DNA of 64,000 nucleotides. Source: Niastella populi. GTDB lineage: Bacteria; Bacteroidota; Bacteroidia; Chitinophagales; Chitinophagaceae. A program made the position numbers and the translations under genes. This document shows, piece after piece, positions 15,035-53,341 of the stretch. Under the pieces are notes generated by a model, which searched no databases, was not told the origin of the DNA, and saw nothing but the letters and a program-made list of their open reading frames with translations. The stretch's first letter is position 1. Every line of letters starts with the position of its first letter. The stretch lies in contig NZ_LWBP01000254.1 of the NCBI RefSeq assembly GCF_002078015.1, positions 1-64,000 of the forward strand, given 5' to 3'.

Positions 15035-15724
15035 TTACTTCTTAGCGTCTTTTTTGGGAGCTGCTTTCTTTTTAGCGGGTGCTTCTTCCCCATCACCTTC
15101 TTCTTTTTTGGCTTTGGGCGCTGCTTTTTTCTTAGGTGCCGCTTCTTTCTTTTCTTCGCCGGCTTCGTCTTCTTCTTTCTTAGCTTTAGGCGCTGCCTTT
15201 TTCTTAGGCGCTGCTTCTTTCTTTTCTTCTTCGCCTGCTGCTTCTTTTTCTTTTTTAGCAGCCTTAGGTTTTTCTTCTTTTACGGAAGCTTTTTCTTCAA
15301 CAGCAACTTCCTCTTCAACCGGTTCTTCTTCCGGAGCCGCTTCTCTCAGTTTGATCTCAATATTGTTTGACTTCAGAACGCCAAACCACTTTATCATTTT
15401 CTTCATATCGCTCGAATATACACGGTCAAAATCGAGGTCGGCATATACTTTTTCGAAATAATTCTTAACGGCGGCGTTATCTTTTTCATCGGGCAGCTTT
15501 TCGCCGCTGTTATCCATAGCGGTGAAAATATCAACCAGATTCACATTATCGCGAACTGTATATACTTCAATGCTTTCGAGATGAGAAAAATTATGTATCC
15601 TGCTCGAAACAAATTTTGTGCTCTTGTCTTCCAGTGACCTTACAATAGCGCCATCAGATTTACTGCTCACCAATTCGAATAATCCTGGTAAACCTGTTAC
15701 AGCAACAATTTTAGCGTATTCCAT
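15035..15724 (-). CDS. DUF5606 protein with basic histone-like tail
   Basis: A 229-residue protein in two parts. Residues 1-125 match the Bacteroidota DUF5606 domain, starting MEYAKIVAVTGLPGLFELVS, with a tudor-like small beta region and a helical part ending KMIKWFGVLKSNNIEIKL. Residues 130-229 are a disordered Lys/Ala/Pro/Glu tail with two near-identical copies of EEKKEAAPKKKAAPKAKKEE, ending in lysines. The tail resembles histone H1 or the lysine-rich tails of some bacterial nucleoid proteins. Function is unknown; nucleic-acid binding by the tail is inference. No signal peptide. Confidence 0.85.
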   Translation of the reverse strand: MEYAKIVAVTGLPGLFELVSSKSDGAIVRSLEDKSTKFVSSRIHNFSHLESIEVYTVRDNVNLVDIFTAMDNSGEKLPDEKDNAAVKNYFEKVYADLDFDRVYSSDMKKMIKWFGVLKSNNIEIKLREAAPEEEPVEEEVAVEEKASVKEEKPKAAKKEKEAAGEEEKKEAAPKKKAAPKAKKEEDEAGEEKKEAAPKKKAAPKAKKEEGDGEEAPAKKKAAPKKDAKK

Positions 15725-25875: not shown

Positions 25876-28485
25876 TTATCCCTGCCTTCTTATTCCACCG
25901 CGGCCGCCGCCACCGCCTGATGAACTGCCCCCGCCATTATCCCTGGAGCCGATGGAGGGTCTTGAGCCCCCGCCATTTCCGCCGCCGCCACGGGGGGCGA
26001 AGCCACCGCTATTACCACCGCCACGCGGGCTAAAACCACCGCCCTGTGGTTGTGAGCCACGACCTGGCGAGAACACTCTATTGCCGCCATCGCCGCTATT
26101 ACCGCCATAAGGCCTTGAGAAATTGCGTTGTTGTGGTTGTTGCCAGCCGCCGGAAGGGCGATCTGTTGATCCTGGCTGTCTGCCGGGCAATTGCCGGATC
26201 CTTTCTGGCGTGCGGCCCGGATTATTGTTCCAATCGCGGTTACCGCCATTGGGATTGGCAAATCGCTGGCCCTGCCCCGGGCGTATAGCACCTTGTTGAT
26301 CATTGTTATTTCTCCAACCCCTGACGTTTCCGTTGTTATCTGGGCGGGCAAGTCGTTCGCGGTTATAGGTTCCGTTCTGCGAATCGAAACCTCTTCTTCC
26401 GCCTGCATCTGGGCGGGCAAGTCGTTCGCGGTTGTAAATTCCGTTCTGCGAATCGAAGCTTCTTCTTCCGCCTGCATCAGGACGGGCAAAACGATCGCGG
26501 TTGAAACCGCCGTTTTGTGGCGTGGCAATTCTGCCGCCGGCGTCGGGGCGGCCATTTCTGTCGAAGCGGCCACCGCTATAACCTCGTCCATTATCGGCAA
26601 AACCCATGCGGCCACCACGGCCGCCACTGCCATAACGCGGGCCTCTGTCGTAACCACCGCGGCCATAATCACGGGTTACAATGCCATTTCTTCCCCTGTA
26701 TATGTTGGTATTGCTATAGTAGTTATTTACTACCGTTACGTTGTTATATTGACGGTAAGATCTGTAACTGTTATACCCATAGTAACCGCCACGGTAGTGG
26801 TATGAAGGGCCGTAGTAGCAGGGGCGATAAACGCGTGGACCGCCCCACCAGCCGCCATAACCCCAATAACCCCAAGGGTAGGCATTACCAAAACTGATGC
26901 TGACATTAAACCAGTCCCAGCCAAAGCCACCGCCGAATCCCCAGCCAAACCACGGATTGTAGCGGATACCAAATCCCCACGTATAAGGACGCGCATAATA
27001 ATAACGGCCATACCAGGGGCGATAGTAATAACCGGTTCCGTATACAACGGTTGGCCCATATACATATGCATTGAGGTAACCGGGTGTATACCCCATGTAA
27101 ACATAATCGGGCGTTACATCGTAGATGTCAACATACTTCATGTAATAAACCGGGTAACGGGGCGGAATAAGTGCCACCGCATAAGGCCGGCTTACGCTCA
27201 CCACCCACGGGCCAACTGCGTTATATGATTCGAACCACACGCCGTTATCAACGGTGTAATACCTGTTACGCCAGCGGATTACCGATGCCGGTGAATTGGT
27301 GGCGTAATACATATCGGTGCCATCGATTGCTTCAAATTGTGGATCGCCATCATAATCAACATCGGCGCGCACTTTACTGCGTTCCACTTTTGCGGTTTGC
27401 GGAACCTGCGCTTCGGCAATAGCGTCATTCGCTTCTTCGGTGCCTGCAACGCTGGCAAGTACATTGTCTTTTGATGATCCTTTGGGAATTTTGGCAAAGT
27501 CTGCAGGCAGTTGATCTGCCGCTACATATTGCCAGTTACCAGTAAGGGTTTTTGATTTATACCAGCGGCCCGACAACAACACATAGTATTGTTGCGAGTT
27601 AATGTCCATGAAAATATCATTCTCTGAATTGGATACGTACAACAAACCGGTTCCGTCTACTGCTGAAAAATTCGCTTCCCCTTTTGATTGTATCAGTTCT
27701 GCCGGTTCTGTGGTTACCACTATGTTGTAAATGGTGTTGGCGTCAGTTTCTTTATTCTCTTCAGGATTTTTCTTGTCGGCTTCCTTAATGGCAGATTCAA
27801 TTTTATTGAGGTTGTTTGGAATGCCGGTGATCAGTTTGTAGGGGCCTGTTGCTTCGGGAGCTGTATACCAGTGTTTACCCCCGTACAGGTAAAACTTATC
27901 ATCGCGGTTCTTTACCAGCACAAACGGGGTGTTCACCACTGCTTCTACGCCCCAGTCTTTATTGGCCTGCAGTTTAGGAGCTCCGTCGATAGATACCAGA
28001 ATGGAAGGTACGTTGGTGTAAATAACCTTGGGCGGGGTGTTACTAATTTGCGTGGCAAGGGCGTTTTGCTGTTTGTTGAGGTCAAGGGATGCCTGCAGGT
28101 CCTTATTCGCAAATTCAATATCCCAGGATGCAACCTTGTCTTCAATGGTGTTGGCCAGGCTTTCGAGTTTGCTTTCATCACTTTCGCCAGGCAACTTAAT
28201 ATTGGTAATGTAAATTGATTTAACGCTCACCTGATCGCCCCGGGTTTCGGTTGAGGCCTTTAACCAGGCTACACCGAAAACAGGTTCTGACTTGCCGTTT
28301 TCCAATACCGAAATAGCCGCATGGGCTTTTAGTGTATTGTCGGCAAACGACTCGGGCTGCCATTGATAAAGTTTAATAATGGTCCCTTCGGAAGTGGTTG
28401 TTGTTTTGGGCCAGCTATCCTGGGCCATAGCCAAATGAGTGATCATGCTACCCAACAACACAGCCATCAATGTAAAGATCTTCAT
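25876..28485 (-). CDS. Large secreted Tyr/Trp/Gly- and Arg/Gly-rich repeat protein
   Basis: An 869-residue protein with a signal peptide (residues 1-21). Three zones are visible. Residues 22-430 are ordered, with repeated short motifs such as KDWGVEAVVNTPFVLVKNRD, KHWYTAPEATGPYKLI, RWYKSKTLTGNWQYV and VWFESYNAVGPWVV, each ending in a Trp/Tyr-Gly-x-Trp turn. Residues 430-620 are extremely rich in Tyr, Trp, Gly and Pro. The last 250 residues are Arg/Gly/Asn-rich and include a 23-residue repeat. Similar proteins in Bacteroidota are sometimes labelled carbohydrate-binding family V/XII. Function unknown; surface or adhesive use is inference. Monocistronic with a strong terminator. Confidence 0.8.
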   Translation of the reverse strand: MKIFTLMAVLLGSMITHLAMAQDSWPKTTTTSEGTIIKLYQWQPESFADNTLKAHAAISVLENGKSEPVFGVAWLKASTETRGDQVSVKSIYITNIKLPGESDESKLESLANTIEDKVASWDIEFANKDLQASLDLNKQQNALATQISNTPPKVIYTNVPSILVSIDGAPKLQANKDWGVEAVVNTPFVLVKNRDDKFYLYGGKHWYTAPEATGPYKLITGIPNNLNKIESAIKEADKKNPEENKETDANTIYNIVVTTEPAELIQSKGEANFSAVDGTGLLYVSNSENDIFMDINSQQYYVLLSGRWYKSKTLTGNWQYVAADQLPADFAKIPKGSSKDNVLASVAGTEEANDAIAEAQVPQTAKVERSKVRADVDYDGDPQFEAIDGTDMYYATNSPASVIRWRNRYYTVDNGVWFESYNAVGPWVVSVSRPYAVALIPPRYPVYYMKYVDIYDVTPDYVYMGYTPGYLNAYVYGPTVVYGTGYYYRPWYGRYYYARPYTWGFGIRYNPWFGWGFGGGFGWDWFNVSISFGNAYPWGYWGYGGWWGGPRVYRPCYYGPSYHYRGGYYGYNSYRSYRQYNNVTVVNNYYSNTNIYRGRNGIVTRDYGRGGYDRGPRYGSGGRGGRMGFADNGRGYSGGRFDRNGRPDAGGRIATPQNGGFNRDRFARPDAGGRRSFDSQNGIYNRERLARPDAGGRRGFDSQNGTYNRERLARPDNNGNVRGWRNNNDQQGAIRPGQGQRFANPNGGNRDWNNNPGRTPERIRQLPGRQPGSTDRPSGGWQQPQQRNFSRPYGGNSGDGGNRVFSPGRGSQPQGGGFSPRGGGNSGGFAPRGGGGNGGGSRPSIGSRDNGGGSSSGGGGGRGGIRRQG
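26341..26544 (-). repeat. Three tandem 69-bp coding repeats
   Basis: Units begin at 26341, 26410 and 26479 with exact 69-bp spacing; the first two are nearly identical and the third is diverged. They encode the 23-residue unit NRERLARPDAGGRRxFDSQ plus NGxY of the large secreted protein. Confidence 0.85.
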
Positions 28486-48543: not shown

Positions 48544-50793
48544 TTAATCGGCTGCTTTGCTTACCTGTAACCATTCCCTGTAACTCAGCACCGCCTTTAT
48601 TTCTATCCATGAAAAATCCTCACCCAGTTTTTCCTTTACCGGCGATGAAGCGGGTGTTGGTAAATTCAATTCTTCCACGGTTTGGAGAATGAGAGCGACT
48701 TTATGTTCAGGAACCACGTCTTTTACATCTACCTCACCGGTTTTTATAAACGAAACCAGATGGCTTTCAACGGTAGAAGGGGCCAGTTCCCGTATTGCTG
48801 CAATTTCTGTAATGCTTTTACCTTCCCTAAACAACTGCAGGCTTATCCGGTTCGAATCGCCTTTTTGTGGTTTCGCCGTTTTCTTTTCCATGGTCTCCTT
48901 CTGCTCCCGATTAATTACTTCCGTTCTTTTTTGTTCTACCAGCTCGAGGATCTCACTGGTATTTACGCCTTTCACCAACCCTTCGGTAATTTGTACAGCC
49001 TGGTTCAGTTGTTGTTTTTTTCGTTGTGGCAGCAGGTTCAATTGCTGTAACGCGGCAACATATTTTTTGGCCTTTGGTTTTACTTTTATTTCGGCTATGT
49101 GGTTTTTGATTGACGTTTCCATTTCGTCCATAGCCTGTAAAAAATAGGTGCTTCCTGCCGAAACGCGTTGATGCAGGAACTGGTAGCCATCCTGCATTGC
49201 GTTAGGTAGCAACTGCTCCAGTTGCCGCGAGAACTTACCGGCCATTTCCTGTTGTTTCAAAACGGTATCGAGCAAGGCTTTTGCCCAAAGCACACAATGG
49301 TTTTTATCGGGTACCTGGCGGGTTTCGTAACTTTCATAGAGCATTTCCATGCCTTCTGCCAGCTTTAACCAGTCGAATGTTTGCACCAGGGAGCGGGTTA
49401 TAAATATCTTTTGTTGTTGCTGTAATTCCTGTGCCAGCTGATCTTCTTCTTTCTCGAGCCGGGTAAACTCAATTACCCGTTCATCGGTGTGTATACTGGA
49501 GGGTTGTATGCGCGAATAAAGCACGAGGCCGGCCAGGGAAGTTAACCGGCTCAGGGCTACGTAAACCTGTCCGGGCGCAAACGACGCACCGGCATCTACA
49601 ATGGCTTTATCGAAGGTGAGGCCCTGGCTTTTGTGAATGGTAATGGCCCAGGCCAGCCTGATGGGGTACTGTTTAAAGGCGCCTACTTCATCTTCCTCAA
49701 TGCTGTCCTCTTCCTGATTATACTGGTACCGGATGTTGCGCCAGGTTTCTTTCTCCAGCAGCATGTCGTGTTCATCGCCTTCGAACCTGATATAGATCTC
49801 TTCGCCGGCAATACGCGAAATAGTGGCGATCTTTCCATTGTAAAACCTTCTTGATTCGCCCTTGTCGTTTTTGATGAACATGACCTGGGCGCGTTCTTTC
49901 AGCTGCAGTATAAGATCAGCAGGATAAGCGCGCTCGTTGAAGTCGCCGGTTATTTCGGCTTTGCATTCAATTCCGTCGCCAGCCAGTTTTTCAAGCTGCA
50001 CCTGGTTTATAGTATCTGCCTTTGCGTTATGCGTGGTAAGGGTAATATAGCTTTCTGTACCGCTGCTTTCATAACCGGGCAGGTAATGTTTGTTCAACAG
50101 GTCGAGGTCGGCCTGGGTGGTTTTATTGTTGCGGATATTATTGAGCACTGAAATGAACTCCTGTTCGTGCTGGCGGTAGATCTTTTTCAGTTCAAGGTAA
50201 AGCGGCGGATTCTGTTGCAGGGCCTGGGCATCGAAAAAGAAAGGGCTTCGGTATTGCTGACGTAAAATTTCCCATTCCTCGTTTTTAACAACAGGGGGTA
50301 ATTGAAACAGGTCGCCTATATACAGCATTTGAACGCCGCCAAAAGGCTCAAACTGCTTTTTACGAACATGACGCAAAATGCAGTCAATTTCATCGAGCAG
50401 ATCGGCCCGCAGCATGCTCACTTCATCAACGATCAGCAGTTCCAGTTCCTGCAGCAATACCTTTTTATCATTGTTGAGCCGGAGGTTCTTCAACAACGTG
50501 TGCGGCGTGTTAAAGGAGTTATTGCTGTTCCAGCCGGTTTGCTGAACCGGTAAGAACGAGCCATGCGGCAACTGGAAAAAAGAATGCAGGGTAACCCCGC
50601 CGGCGTTGATGGCGGCCACGCCGGTAGGCGCCACGATGGCCAGTTTTTTAAAAGTATTGTCCCGGATGTATTTTAAGAAAGTGGTCTTTCCGGTACCAGC
50701 CTTTCCGGTAAGGAAAATGTGGCGGTTAGTTTGATTCACAAACCGAACAGCCAGTTGGAACAAATGATTGGATGAATCTCCGGAAAAAGCCAT
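48544..50793 (-). CDS. Pif1-like SF1B helicase with C-terminal HTH
   Basis: A 749-residue DNA helicase. Walker A is GKAGTGKT (30-37), then VAPTGVAAINAGGVTLHSFF and LLIVDEVSMLRADLLDEID, the typical Pif1/Rrm3 motifs Ia and II. The second RecA domain ends with the UvrD_C_2 motif LAWAITIHKSQGLTFDKAIV and GQVYVALSRLTSLAGLVL. Residues 480-600 hold a helical HRDC-like stretch, and 650-745 contain a RecQ-type helix-turn-helix (GKSITEIAAIRELAPSTVES). Pif1 helicases unwind G-quadruplexes and stalled forks. Its upstream region contains the 21-bp array. Confidence 0.9.
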   Translation of the reverse strand: MAFSGDSSNHLFQLAVRFVNQTNRHIFLTGKAGTGKTTFLKYIRDNTFKKLAIVAPTGVAAINAGGVTLHSFFQLPHGSFLPVQQTGWNSNNSFNTPHTLLKNLRLNNDKKVLLQELELLIVDEVSMLRADLLDEIDCILRHVRKKQFEPFGGVQMLYIGDLFQLPPVVKNEEWEILRQQYRSPFFFDAQALQQNPPLYLELKKIYRQHEQEFISVLNNIRNNKTTQADLDLLNKHYLPGYESSGTESYITLTTHNAKADTINQVQLEKLAGDGIECKAEITGDFNERAYPADLILQLKERAQVMFIKNDKGESRRFYNGKIATISRIAGEEIYIRFEGDEHDMLLEKETWRNIRYQYNQEEDSIEEDEVGAFKQYPIRLAWAITIHKSQGLTFDKAIVDAGASFAPGQVYVALSRLTSLAGLVLYSRIQPSSIHTDERVIEFTRLEKEEDQLAQELQQQQKIFITRSLVQTFDWLKLAEGMEMLYESYETRQVPDKNHCVLWAKALLDTVLKQQEMAGKFSRQLEQLLPNAMQDGYQFLHQRVSAGSTYFLQAMDEMETSIKNHIAEIKVKPKAKKYVAALQQLNLLPQRKKQQLNQAVQITEGLVKGVNTSEILELVEQKRTEVINREQKETMEKKTAKPQKGDSNRISLQLFREGKSITEIAAIRELAPSTVESHLVSFIKTGEVDVKDVVPEHKVALILQTVEELNLPTPASSPVKEKLGEDFSWIEIKAVLSYREWLQVSKAAD

Positions 50794-50948: not shown

Positions 50949-51219
50949 GAAAAAATATCCCGGCGCATCATTTTCATATGACAGGGCACCATTTTCATAT
51001 GACAGGGCACCATTTTCATATGACAGGTTACCATTTTCATATGATAGGGTACCATTTTCATATGGCAGGGTACCATTTTCATATGATAGGGTACCATTTT
51101 CATATGGCAGAGCACCATTTTCATATGACAGGGTACCATTTTCATATGGCAGGGTACCATTTTCATATGAAAACATGGTGAAATCATATGATAGAGTATC
51201 GTTTTAAAATGAAAACGGG
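50949..51219. repeat. 21-bp tandem array of CATATG palindromes
   Basis: CATATG occurs eleven times at exactly 21-bp steps from 50975 to 51185. The common unit is ATTTTCATATG followed by RYAGGGYACC, with variation almost only in those last ten bases. The tenth unit is a 14-bp palindrome TTTTCATATGAAAA; the twelfth has AAAATG in place of CATATG but keeps the flanks, and a decayed unit precedes the first. As 21 is divisible by three, all six frames stay open across it, so open frames here are not evidence of coding. Confidence 0.95.
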
Positions 51220-51477
51220 CCCATTGTTTGGGCCGGTTTTGAGGGGTCACAAATGGTGGAGCCTACCGCTCAGGCTAAGATATTACGATTTATAAAATAT
51301 AGTTTTTTATTGTGTTGCGGGCTTGAAATAAAAAAATCAGATGCGAATAATGAAAAAAGGAAGAGTTGATATGTCATGTTTTAAGGCCCGAATAAAAAAA
51401 AACTGCCTTTTTTATATGATTTAGATCACAGAAAACGCGGAAAATTGAAAAAAACAGCTATATTAGCAAAGGCAAAT

Positions 51478-51506
51478 AAAAAAAGCCACCTGTAGAAACA
51501 GCTGGC
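51478..51506 (-). terminator. Minus-strand intrinsic terminator in intergenic region
   Basis: GCCAGCTGT and ACAGGTGGC pair with one mismatch around TTCT, followed on the minus strand by TTTTTTTATTT. It would end a transcript carrying the 40-codon frame. Confidence 0.8.
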
Positions 51507-51634
51507 CTCTAACGATTGCTTGCCATATGAAAAAAGAGATAAATCTATTTGTCTTTTTGAATACTGGGTATTAACTTGCCGTATTCTTTTTTGAGCCTCT
51601 AATGATTGCTATAACTCTAACGATTGCTTCCCAT
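51506..51634. repeat. Three direct copies of CTCTAAYGATTGCT
   Basis: Copies begin at 51507, 51597 and 51615. The first two share the longer CCTCTAAYGATTGCT and the first and third share CTCTAACGATTGCTTSCCAT. The second and third are 18 bp apart and lie within the 40-codon minus-strand frame; the first is next to the terminator stem. Confidence 0.7.
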
Positions 51635-51693
51635 AACCATTTGCTCATTTGCTGAATCAAAAGTAGGATGTAAATCCGTATCTTTCGAAACAT
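51571..51693 (-). CDS. Candidate 40-aa hydrophobic basic peptide
   Basis: ATG at 51693, TAA at 51571. The peptide starts MFRKIRIYILLLIQQMSK and continues with WLWEAIVRVIAIIRG and a basic KKNTAS end: one long hydrophobic helix between positive ends, like small membrane peptides and type I toxins. The EAIVRVIAIIR part is an internal six-codon duplication. A good terminator follows on the same strand. No family is recognised; chance is possible. Confidence 0.35.
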   Translation of the reverse strand: MFRKIRIYILLLIQQMSKWLWEAIVRVIAIIRGSKKNTAS

Positions 51694-51778
51694 CTTACTA
51701 CCGGTTTTATTACGCCAAGAGTGTGAAAGAAAACCTAAAACCCTTACCGGTACTGAGTTTCAGGCAAATTTCATAATT

Positions 51779-53341
51779 ATGTCCAACCGATTTACAGATG
51801 CATTGTTTCAATTGGTTCATTCACTGGAGAAGTCGGAAAAGAGGCACTTTAAACTTTATATAAAAAGAAGTTCGGCAAACGAAGACTTGAAGATCATACG
51901 GTTATTCGACGCGTTGGATAAATTACCCGAGTATGACGAAAAGTTGTTGCTTAAGAAGTTACCAGACATCAAAAAGCCGCAACTTGCCAACATAAAAACA
52001 CATTTATATAAACAGTTACTGGCCAGCCTTAGGCTGTTAAAGGCTACCGAAAATATTGATCTTCAGCTCAGTGAACACCTCGACCATGCGCGGGTGCTTT
52101 ATAATAAAGGATTAAAACTGCAAGCCCTTAAAATTCTTGAAAAGGCTAAGGAGATCGCGCGCGCCAACCAGAAGTTCAATTTCCTGGCCCAGGTGATCTC
52201 ATTGGAAAAGAAGATCGAAACGCTTCACATCACCCGCAGTTCTACCGAAAAAACACTTCATTTAGCAGAGGAAGCGCAGGAAATAAGCAGTCATATCGAC
52301 CGCGTTACCCGGCTTTCGAACCTCGCCCTGCTCATGTATCGCTGGTTTGTGCTCAATGGCCATGCCCGCAATCCCGAAGACGAGCAGGAACTGCGAAAAT
52401 TCTTTAAAGAATACCTGCCTGCCGATATGAATGTCGTAAACGGCTTTTACGAACGGCTGTACCTGTACCAGAGCTATAGCTGGTATGCATTTATAAAGCA
52501 GGATTTCCTGATGTATTACCGCTACGGTCAAAAGTGGATCGACCTGTACACAGAACATCCCCTGATGAAAGAAGTGGAAACAGGCCACTATATAAAGGGA
52601 ATGCACAACCTGCTTAACGCACATTTCGACCTGCGTAACTTCAAGCAGTTTGAAATTACGCTCAGGCAGTTTGAAGAGTTCTCCAGAACGCCGGTTGCCA
52701 CGCACCACGATAATTTCCGCACGCATACATTTATTTATATAAACAGCGCGAAAATAAACCAGCACCTGATGCAGGGCACTTTCCGCGAAGGACTGGCCCT
52801 GGTGCCTGAAATAGAAGAAAAGCTGGAAGAGTATGCGTTGTTTGTAGATCAGCACCGCATTCTGGTGTTCAATTACAAGATCGCAACTCTGTATTTCGGG
52901 AACGGCGATTTTGAAAAATGTATCGACTACCTGCAAAGGATTATCAACGGCCCGCTCGACCTGCGGGTAGATCTGCAATGTTACGCCCGGTTATTGCACA
53001 TGCTTGCCCATTATGAAATGGGTAATTATGAGTTGATGGAATCGCTCTCCAAATCGGTATTCCGCTTTATGGCGCGTATGAAAAACATAACGGTGGTGGA
53101 AGAGGAGATGCTGAAATTCCTTCGACATTCATTTGGGGTTAGTCCGCGGGAATTGAAACCAGAGCTGGAGAAATTCCTGAACAAGATCAAACATCTTGAA
53201 AAAAACCCGTTTGAAACAAGGGCATTTGCTTACCTCGATATTATTTCCTGGACGGAAAGTAAAGTATACCAGAAGCCTATGCGCGACATTGTATATGAAA
53301 AATATTTAAAGAGCAGGCACCGGCTTTTGGCCAAAGCCTGA
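51779..53341 (+). CDS. Helical-repeat protein of unknown function
   Basis: A 520-residue soluble protein without signal peptide. It is almost wholly alpha-helical and charged, with TPR-like pairs such as ALKILEKAKEIARANQKFNF, TLHLAEEAQEISSHIDRVTR, AYLDIISW and FEKCIDYLQRIINGPLDL. The N-terminus (FTDALFQLVHSLEKSEKRHF) is a conserved opening seen in a Bacteroidota family of unknown function, to my recollection. A scaffold or protein-interaction role is likely from the fold only. It has its own terminator and a long upstream region with the 21-bp array. Confidence 0.8.
   Translation: MSNRFTDALFQLVHSLEKSEKRHFKLYIKRSSANEDLKIIRLFDALDKLPEYDEKLLLKKLPDIKKPQLANIKTHLYKQLLASLRLLKATENIDLQLSEHLDHARVLYNKGLKLQALKILEKAKEIARANQKFNFLAQVISLEKKIETLHITRSSTEKTLHLAEEAQEISSHIDRVTRLSNLALLMYRWFVLNGHARNPEDEQELRKFFKEYLPADMNVVNGFYERLYLYQSYSWYAFIKQDFLMYYRYGQKWIDLYTEHPLMKEVETGHYIKGMHNLLNAHFDLRNFKQFEITLRQFEEFSRTPVATHHDNFRTHTFIYINSAKINQHLMQGTFREGLALVPEIEEKLEEYALFVDQHRILVFNYKIATLYFGNGDFEKCIDYLQRIINGPLDLRVDLQCYARLLHMLAHYEMGNYELMESLSKSVFRFMARMKNITVVEEEMLKFLRHSFGVSPRELKPELEKFLNKIKHLEKNPFETRAFAYLDIISWTESKVYQKPMRDIVYEKYLKSRHRLLAKA

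Follow-up and report, generated by a model that had tools for sequence, protein, structure and literature searches.

The window analyzed here, a 64,000-nucleotide stretch of Niastella populi DNA on contig C253 of the draft genome (G000; 8,612,588 bases in 263 contigs), contains an array of short palindromes between two genes in divergent order. The left gene (48544 to 50793, minus strand) encodes a PIF1-like helicase (PF05970) with an HTH_40 domain, in agreement with the original prediction of divergent flanking genes, one of them for a Pif1-like helicase. The right gene (51779 to 53341, plus strand) encodes a 520-aa protein, the helical-repeat protein of the original prediction, that had no Pfam hit and whose best match in each of nine congeners was 92 to 96% identical. 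We would assign neither gene to the array system.

The array proper (50975 to 51190; unstranded, as are the features below for which no strand is given) consists of 11 exact CATATG hexamers, all ten intervals being 21 bp. It is bordered by decayed units in the same phase, the left one (50949 to 50974) with AATATC at 50954 to 50959 and an S1-like spacer, and the right one (51191 to 51219) with AAAATG at 51206 to 51211; the count, the spacing, and the decayed ends had all been predicted. TRF reported a period of 21 over 50969 to 51170 (9.6 copies, 90% matches), and a two-unit pattern of 33 bases had six matches in the window versus none in 100 of 100 shuffles. Ten of the hexamers lie within an exact TTTTCATATG (50971 to 51169, plus strand) and are separated by nine near-identical spacers of type S1 (ACAGGGYACCATTTT-like), and the eleventh lies within AAATCATATG. 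The full palindrome TTTTCATATGAAAA, which is also found as a site in the 42-bp superunit that makes up other arrays in this genome, is present in one unit only (51160 to 51173) and is followed by the single S2-type spacer (AAAACATGGTGAAAT; 51170 to 51184), a remnant of the alternating 42-bp superunit. The predicted conservation of a palindromic half held, but the predicted ten variable bases between the halves did not: the spacers are 15 bp long, end in TTTT in 9 of 10 cases, and vary at about five other positions. With nine S1 spacers in a row and one S2, the array looks as if one half of the superunit had been locally re-expanded.

Three other features of the window were recorded. Tandem repeats with periods of 72 and 69 lie in an open-frame context at 15097 to 15259 and 26338 to 26503, respectively. 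Upstream of the 520-aa gene, a nearly invariant noncoding block (51480 to 51660, aligned over 51400 to 51781) is present in the window's genome and five congeners; it holds CTCTAACGATTGCTT-like repeats and one minus-strand TTTTCATATG (51524 to 51533) that is kept in all six genomes. It is possibly an unlisted small RNA, with a double change in 1 of 88 predicted pairs of its fold. A search of this block against Rfam gave nothing above gathering and one match below it (E = 0.31), and we discarded the idea that the array owes its locus to a conserved small RNA.

Array places across the genome

The pattern CATATG-N15-CATATG had 68 matches per strand in G000. The matches listed, which run as far as C240, number 50 and comprise an isolated pair on C235 and those in C145, C189, C200, C206, C214, C218, C234, and C240; the remaining 18 equal in number the ten and eight intervals of two arrays on the 316-kb contig C253, at 51 kb (the window) and 197 kb. 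The genome search that the original prediction called for thus gave up to nine further places, or up to ten with the window. The assembly breaks within arrays at C206 (contig end) and at C218 and C234 (contig starts), and C240 is near a contig end; C206, C218, and C234 may be split halves that belong to a smaller number of arrays, which makes the number and sizes of arrays in this draft uncertain. Every interval was 21 bp in the nine arrays that were read, with C206 showing just two sites, and the seven arrays free of a contig-end cut have 8 to 11 sites each. A constant phase with a changing unit number, as had been expected, was seen over the arrays of this genome and those of its relatives. 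The arrays are intergenic as far as the contigs show, with their neighboring genes in convergent, divergent, or tandem order. In eight of the nine, S2 (AAAACAGGGTGTTTT-like) and S1 spacers alternate, forming the 42-bp superunit in either orientation and with occasional departures; the window array is the exception. The edge variant AATATG was common to three arrays.

The hexamers and their spacers differ sharply in conservation. The nine arrays hold 75 cores, and with two per array set aside, since detection needs two adjacent cores, the other 57 supply 342 free core positions, none of which was changed. No inner broken core, which would be expected as a 42-bp gap, was found in these arrays; because an array was taken to end at its first broken core, end decay is uncounted. 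In the 66 spacers, on the other hand, 19% of positions in S1 (39 spacers) and 21% in S2 (27 spacers) were off the type consensus. The TTTT before the core was invariant in all 39 S1 spacers, and the first four S1 positions varied (agreement of 0.59, 0.49, 0.67, and 0.82). A conserved core with drifting spacers is what the original prediction had described. Spacers were more alike within arrays than between them (0.18 versus 0.29 differences per site), and therefore homogenization acts too.

These data bear on the alternative of a repeat confined to the window locus, either a plain minisatellite or a translated repeat. Its near-identical spacers and the open frames that cross the array, one per strand (109 and 125 aa), would fit such a repeat. 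However, open frames are expected because 21 is a multiple of 3, and the variable spacer positions occur at all codon positions. Uniform divergence of all unit positions, as in a minisatellite, was not found (0 of 342 core positions versus about 20% of spacer positions), and up to nine sister places exist in the same genome. A recent minisatellite leaves both this contrast and the frames with other cores in congeners (see below) unexplained, although this array does look locally re-expanded. The array set and those frames refute such a repeat as the sole explanation, and we consider it highly improbable.

We scanned 18 flank proteins with Pfam, 15 of which had a hit and 3 of which had none; one side was without a visible gene at C206, C218, C234, and C240, owing to contig ends. 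The types comprised PIF1, LolA, a flavoprotein that we took for UbiX, O-antigen ligase, ABC transporter, DCC1-like, YebC, Smr, MacB/FtsX, HAD, DUF4834, a LacI-type regulator, and ribose-5-phosphate isomerase, with FtsK and NusA further out. No gene type recurred among the 18, including those whose products may contact DNA (the LacI-type regulator, YebC, the PIF1 helicase with its HTH domain, and FtsK). A ParA- or ParB-like gene was found for none of the 18 (3 of them being without a Pfam hit), and the partition-like role that had been suggested finds no support in the neighboring genes. An array of insertion sequence ends, along the lines of IS21, was also rejected, as the flank proteins were ordinary by Pfam, with no transposase among the 18 scanned.

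A common frame with other cores in related genomes

No CATATG array was found in nine congeners, one of which (G006) is 61% complete; isolated CATATG-N15-CATATG pairs occurred once in G003 and three times in G007. Across 294 genomes of the family, the two-site pattern was present in one, the window's own. We then searched for the frame without the core (TTTTN6AAAA-N28-TTTTN6AAAA), which had 25 matches in G000, 7 in G003, 2 each in G002 and G009, and 1 in G006; the match in G006 and one of those in G003 (5465437) appear to be chance matches. Reversing the pattern as a control gave no match in any of the five and a single match in each of G005 and G007.

In three congeners, the frame surrounds cores other than CATATG, namely, TACGTA and TAATTA/TAATTG in G002, CAGTTN alternating with CAACTG or TAACTG in G003, and CCCAGG, CCCGGG, and CCTGGG (CCCRGG type) in G009. 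These arrays have about 8 to 15 units, with ends set by eye. For eight of them, we compared the spacers with the S1 and S2 consensuses of G000, using shuffles of the inner positions that keep the A/T ends as controls; the controls fitted as well in 0 of 500 cases for seven arrays and in 2 of 500 for one, and therefore the 42-bp frame is shared. Within this framed family, as distinct from all 21-bp arrays, each species has one core type (nine arrays in G000, four in G003, and two each in G002 and G009). One edge of each G002 array carries CAGTTA with TAACTG, or TAGTTG, hexamers of the type inside the G003 arrays, with TAATTA/TACGTA inside. This pattern, in two arrays, fits a turnover of the core in G002 that left fossils at the array edges.

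Across the family, 99 of 394 genomes matched the frame pattern, mostly once or twice. We do not take this as evidence for a family-wide spread of the frame, as the reversed control gave similar numbers in many genomes (22 versus 22 in G253, 14 versus 19 in G290, and 5 versus 8 in G083). In genus g82, the frame pattern had eight matches versus none for the control in G166 and four versus none in G090.

Judging by flank proteins, two of the eight framed arrays in relatives are at array loci of G000, both in G003: the C214 locus (DCC1-like/YebC) corresponds to 360.6k and the C189 locus (O-antigen ligase/ABC transporter) to 6957k. The other six had no match to any of the G000 array stretches that were fetched. 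The spacers at both of these loci run in reverse order in G003 relative to G000, so that the arrays have opposite orientations, which argues against plain vertical descent and is not predicted by simple inheritance with point change of the core.

Presence was patchy otherwise. The C214 locus has a 21-type array in one of nine relatives (G003), and the LolA/flavoprotein locus and C253b have one in none of nine each; of the four loci compared in nine relatives, two had a 21-bp array in one relative each and two had none. G007 carries, at the window locus, 21-bp repeats of a different, TTGYCCNNGGRCAA-like palindrome, about 600 to 820 bp upstream of the 520-aa gene (560 to 830 bp for the window array), and G005 has an 11-bp array; in G001 and G002, contig starts cut the stretches, so that the place is partly or not covered. 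The original prediction had counted absence in close relatives against itself, and this was borne out in part, as the CATATG array is absent at the locus where it is covered and the 21-bp palindrome array of G007 is unrelated to it. A further family of palindromes, GAGGTCACAAATTGTGACCTC-like, occurs in the noncoding DNA of three congeners at this locus (L074, L076, and L077). In L074, such palindromes also appear to lie inside a gene, which presumably encodes an ORF6N/KilA-type protein.

The main rival to a protein-bound array is a selfish repeat keeping its core for its own spread, or a neutral one, in which short seeds are spread within each species by recombination or a putative mobilizing enzyme and expanded by slippage, and a common core reflects recent common origin instead of selection. 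The opposite orientation at shared loci, the relatives without arrays at most loci checked, the partial homogenization of spacers within arrays, and the AATATG edge variant common to three arrays all speak for it, as does the frequency of noncoding 7-, 8-, 11-, and 21-bp tandem arrays in the genus. Such a repeat does not readily account for the absence of free core changes beside spacers of the same arrays with about 20% of positions changed, for a frame common to several species though the core differs, or for a dyad symmetry limited to the 21-bp class (see below). We regard it as rather unlikely, while giving it serious weight.

Dyad symmetry, folding, and curvature

To place the arrays among other tandem repeats, an unbiased scan covered 2,015,792 bases of six genomes, about half of them from G007, with 312,562 bases being noncoding by mask. 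The noncoding arrays fell into period classes of 21 (n = 19), 7 (n = 15), 8 (n = 14, one of them probably coding), 11 (n = 7), and other (n = 5). Several 21-class arrays had periods of 41, 62, or 82 to 83, i.e., 20.5 to 20.8 bp per unit, as helical phasing would permit. In a dyad test covering the first four classes and unusable for the last, 7 of 19 arrays of the 21 class scored at ≤7/200 column permutations versus 0 of 36 in the 7, 8, and 11 classes (best, 19/200). C253b scored 0/200 and the window array 13/200, and 6 of the 19 scored 150/200 or worse. A TTGYCC-type pattern had 17 matches in 995 kb of G007, of which 8 were single and 9 fell within two arrays on C3, at 257 kb and 555 kb; the TTGYCCNNGGRCAA-like palindrome occurs at two G007 arrays, and the 257-kb array was not significant for dyad symmetry (53/200). 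The CATATG arrays therefore belong to a wider 21-bp class in which a clear dyad is not found in every array and several unit types are possible per genome.

Other repeats were observed in the same genomes. Long arrays with periods of 20.5 to 21 bp and other units lie in DNA noncoding by mask at G002:C13:90558-91092 (with A tracts), G002:C13:31493-31819, G008:C1:624885-625453, and G007:C3:342265-342904, and the dyad signal was absent in the first three. Arrays of 11 bp, in which AACAGGGACCT-like units precede their inverted copies, were seen in three species (G005:C1:1198767, G007:C3:396303, and G008:C1:665039).

In a wider contig collection, the exact two-site CATATG pattern was found in 28 stretches, most of them single chance pairs by eye, and among viral contigs as a single pair on one contig. 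Real 21-bp arrays outside the genus occurred in Planctomycetaceae MAGs (L045, L058, and L066) and in an uncultured Bacteroidetes (L041). The planctomycete arrays have CATTTTCAYATGAAAATG-type units in two MAGs, one with L045 and L066, whose arrays are flanked by 7-base repeats, and another with L058, whose spacers are different. A full reading of L113, on the same contig as L045, showed a drifting core beside a nearly fixed GCGCCA spacer, a reverse pattern for which we rejected the planctomycete array as the same system. Another phased dyad array outside the genus, with about eleven 21-bp units of ATAACATAYGTTATAGCAACA, lies on contig C37 of an uncultured Bacteroidetes (L117; G298).

Palindromic units could also act as fold-back elements similar to REPs, whose RNA or single-stranded DNA hairpins serve in termination or RNA stability or as the substrate of a Y1-type enzyme. 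The RNA folds lay far below those of dinucleotide shuffles (z of −7.6 for the window and −10.8 for C253b); palindromic repeats, however, fold by construction. Against a control that kept cores and A/T tracts (60 shuffles of the inner spacer for 15 arrays, seven from G000 and eight from relatives), 25 of 30 array strands were more stable, 4 were less stable, and 1 was equal, with a mean z of about −1.4; folds worse than the control were found for C189 plus (z of +3.1), C200 minus (+2.7), C240 minus (+1.2), and C200 plus (+0.3). The single full palindrome of the window array and the missing fixed GTAG tag, together with the absence of a transposase among the 18 flank proteins, also speak against this explanation, which we consider improbable.

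Alternatively, what matters may be intrinsic curvature caused by A/T tracts that recur in phase (TTTT-N6-AAAA, roughly every 10.5 bp), and such in-phase tracts were found in the arrays of G000, G002, G003, and G009. Curvature does not need an exact hexamer, though, and the G007 array has few A/T tracts, so that we give this explanation very little credence.

Comparison with known systems and a possible binding array

Tandem dyad sites at helical spacing, as in iterons and centromere-like arrays, are what the 21-bp intervals and dyad scores amount to. The F-plasmid centromere sopC (parS_F) comprises twelve 43-bp repeats, and a dimer binds the 16-bp inverted repeat that each of them contains (PMC9178275). 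The arrays resemble sopC and other plasmid centromere arrays in having tandem units near whole helical turns. They differ from it in being up to ten intergenic arrays in a large genome, in their 21-bp spacing, in a core that differs between sister species, and in flanks without a parA- or parB-like gene among the 18 proteins tested. Instead of the one cluster per replicon of ParABS systems, there are ten array places, two of them on contig C253. Among known kinds, the arrays would work most like a centromere-type array, but the tests for an adjacent partition gene and for one site per replicon failed.

REP/BIME elements are GTAG- and CGTC-tagged palindromes that are dispersed, extragenic, and short (PMC3733652). 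The CATATG arrays are likewise dispersed, extragenic, short palindromic repeats. Unlike REP/BIME elements, they have strict 21-bp tandem phasing and no fixed tetranucleotide tag, no GTAG/CGTC being found at the palindrome foot, where the S1 start is variable. No RAYT/tyrosine transposase was found among the 18 flank proteins tested. The STRR/LTRR repeats of cyanobacteria are intergenic tandem repeats whose function is unknown, and they resemble our arrays in this placement, 7-bp arrays also occurring in these Niastella genomes; dyad-symmetric units, helical phase, the contrast between core and spacer, and a common frame with a changing core set the CATATG arrays apart. Some satellite DNAs have a sequence-specific binder, e.g., at the CENP-B box, and like these, the repeat core here changes in concert over dispersed arrays; the arrays here, unlike those satellites, are bacterial and short (about 8 to 15 sites), and their binder is putative. 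A CRISPR array was rejected, as the 15-bp spacers are variants of two types rather than unique. CATATG is the NdeI site, and a reading as restriction sites was dropped, as the G003 cores CAGTTN/CAACTG are not palindromic hexamers. Among open-access PMC titles and abstract beginnings, no description of such arrays was found.

Based on these observations, we tentatively propose, with a little less than even confidence, that the arrays are cooperative binding arrays for a putative dimeric DNA-binding protein of fast-changing specificity. Dyad sites with the core CATATG, often within TTTTCATATGAAAA, would lie two helical turns apart on one face of the DNA, so that 8 to 11 dimeric copies could bind cooperatively over about 150 to 220 bp. 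The 21/42-bp phase, the A/T tracts beside the core, and the CAGGGTG-like and GTAGCGYACCA-like spacers are kept in the genus, while the core changes jointly across the framed arrays within a species, which would be expected for sites that track a trans-acting protein of changing specificity. We infer that the role would be chromosome organization or silencing rather than local gene control, because the arrays lie in convergent, divergent, and tandem gene order without a common gene type. Counted against binding are the opposite orientation at the shared loci, the six of eight framed arrays of relatives that matched no G000 locus, the patchy presence, the richness in other tandem repeats, the weak dyad scores of part of the 21 class, the lack of recurrence of any DNA-contacting type among the 18 flank proteins, and the reverse pattern in L113. 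Overall, the binding-array interpretation of the original prediction is partly supported.

A broader proposal, which we put forward as doubtful, is a dispersed satellite-like system in which sister species would differ by concerted replacement of the core but retain the frame, the phase, and some loci. The pairing of binder and site would then be fast-evolving and possibly antagonistic, comparable to eukaryotic centromere satellites or recombination hotspots. For most dispersed noncoding repeats in bacteria, no explanation is available, and if this proposal holds, bacterial chromosomes would carry a set of sites that evolve in concert, much as satellites do. Finding one frame around different cores in sister species amounts to a natural experiment, which predicts a binder whose specificity differs from species to species in a known way.
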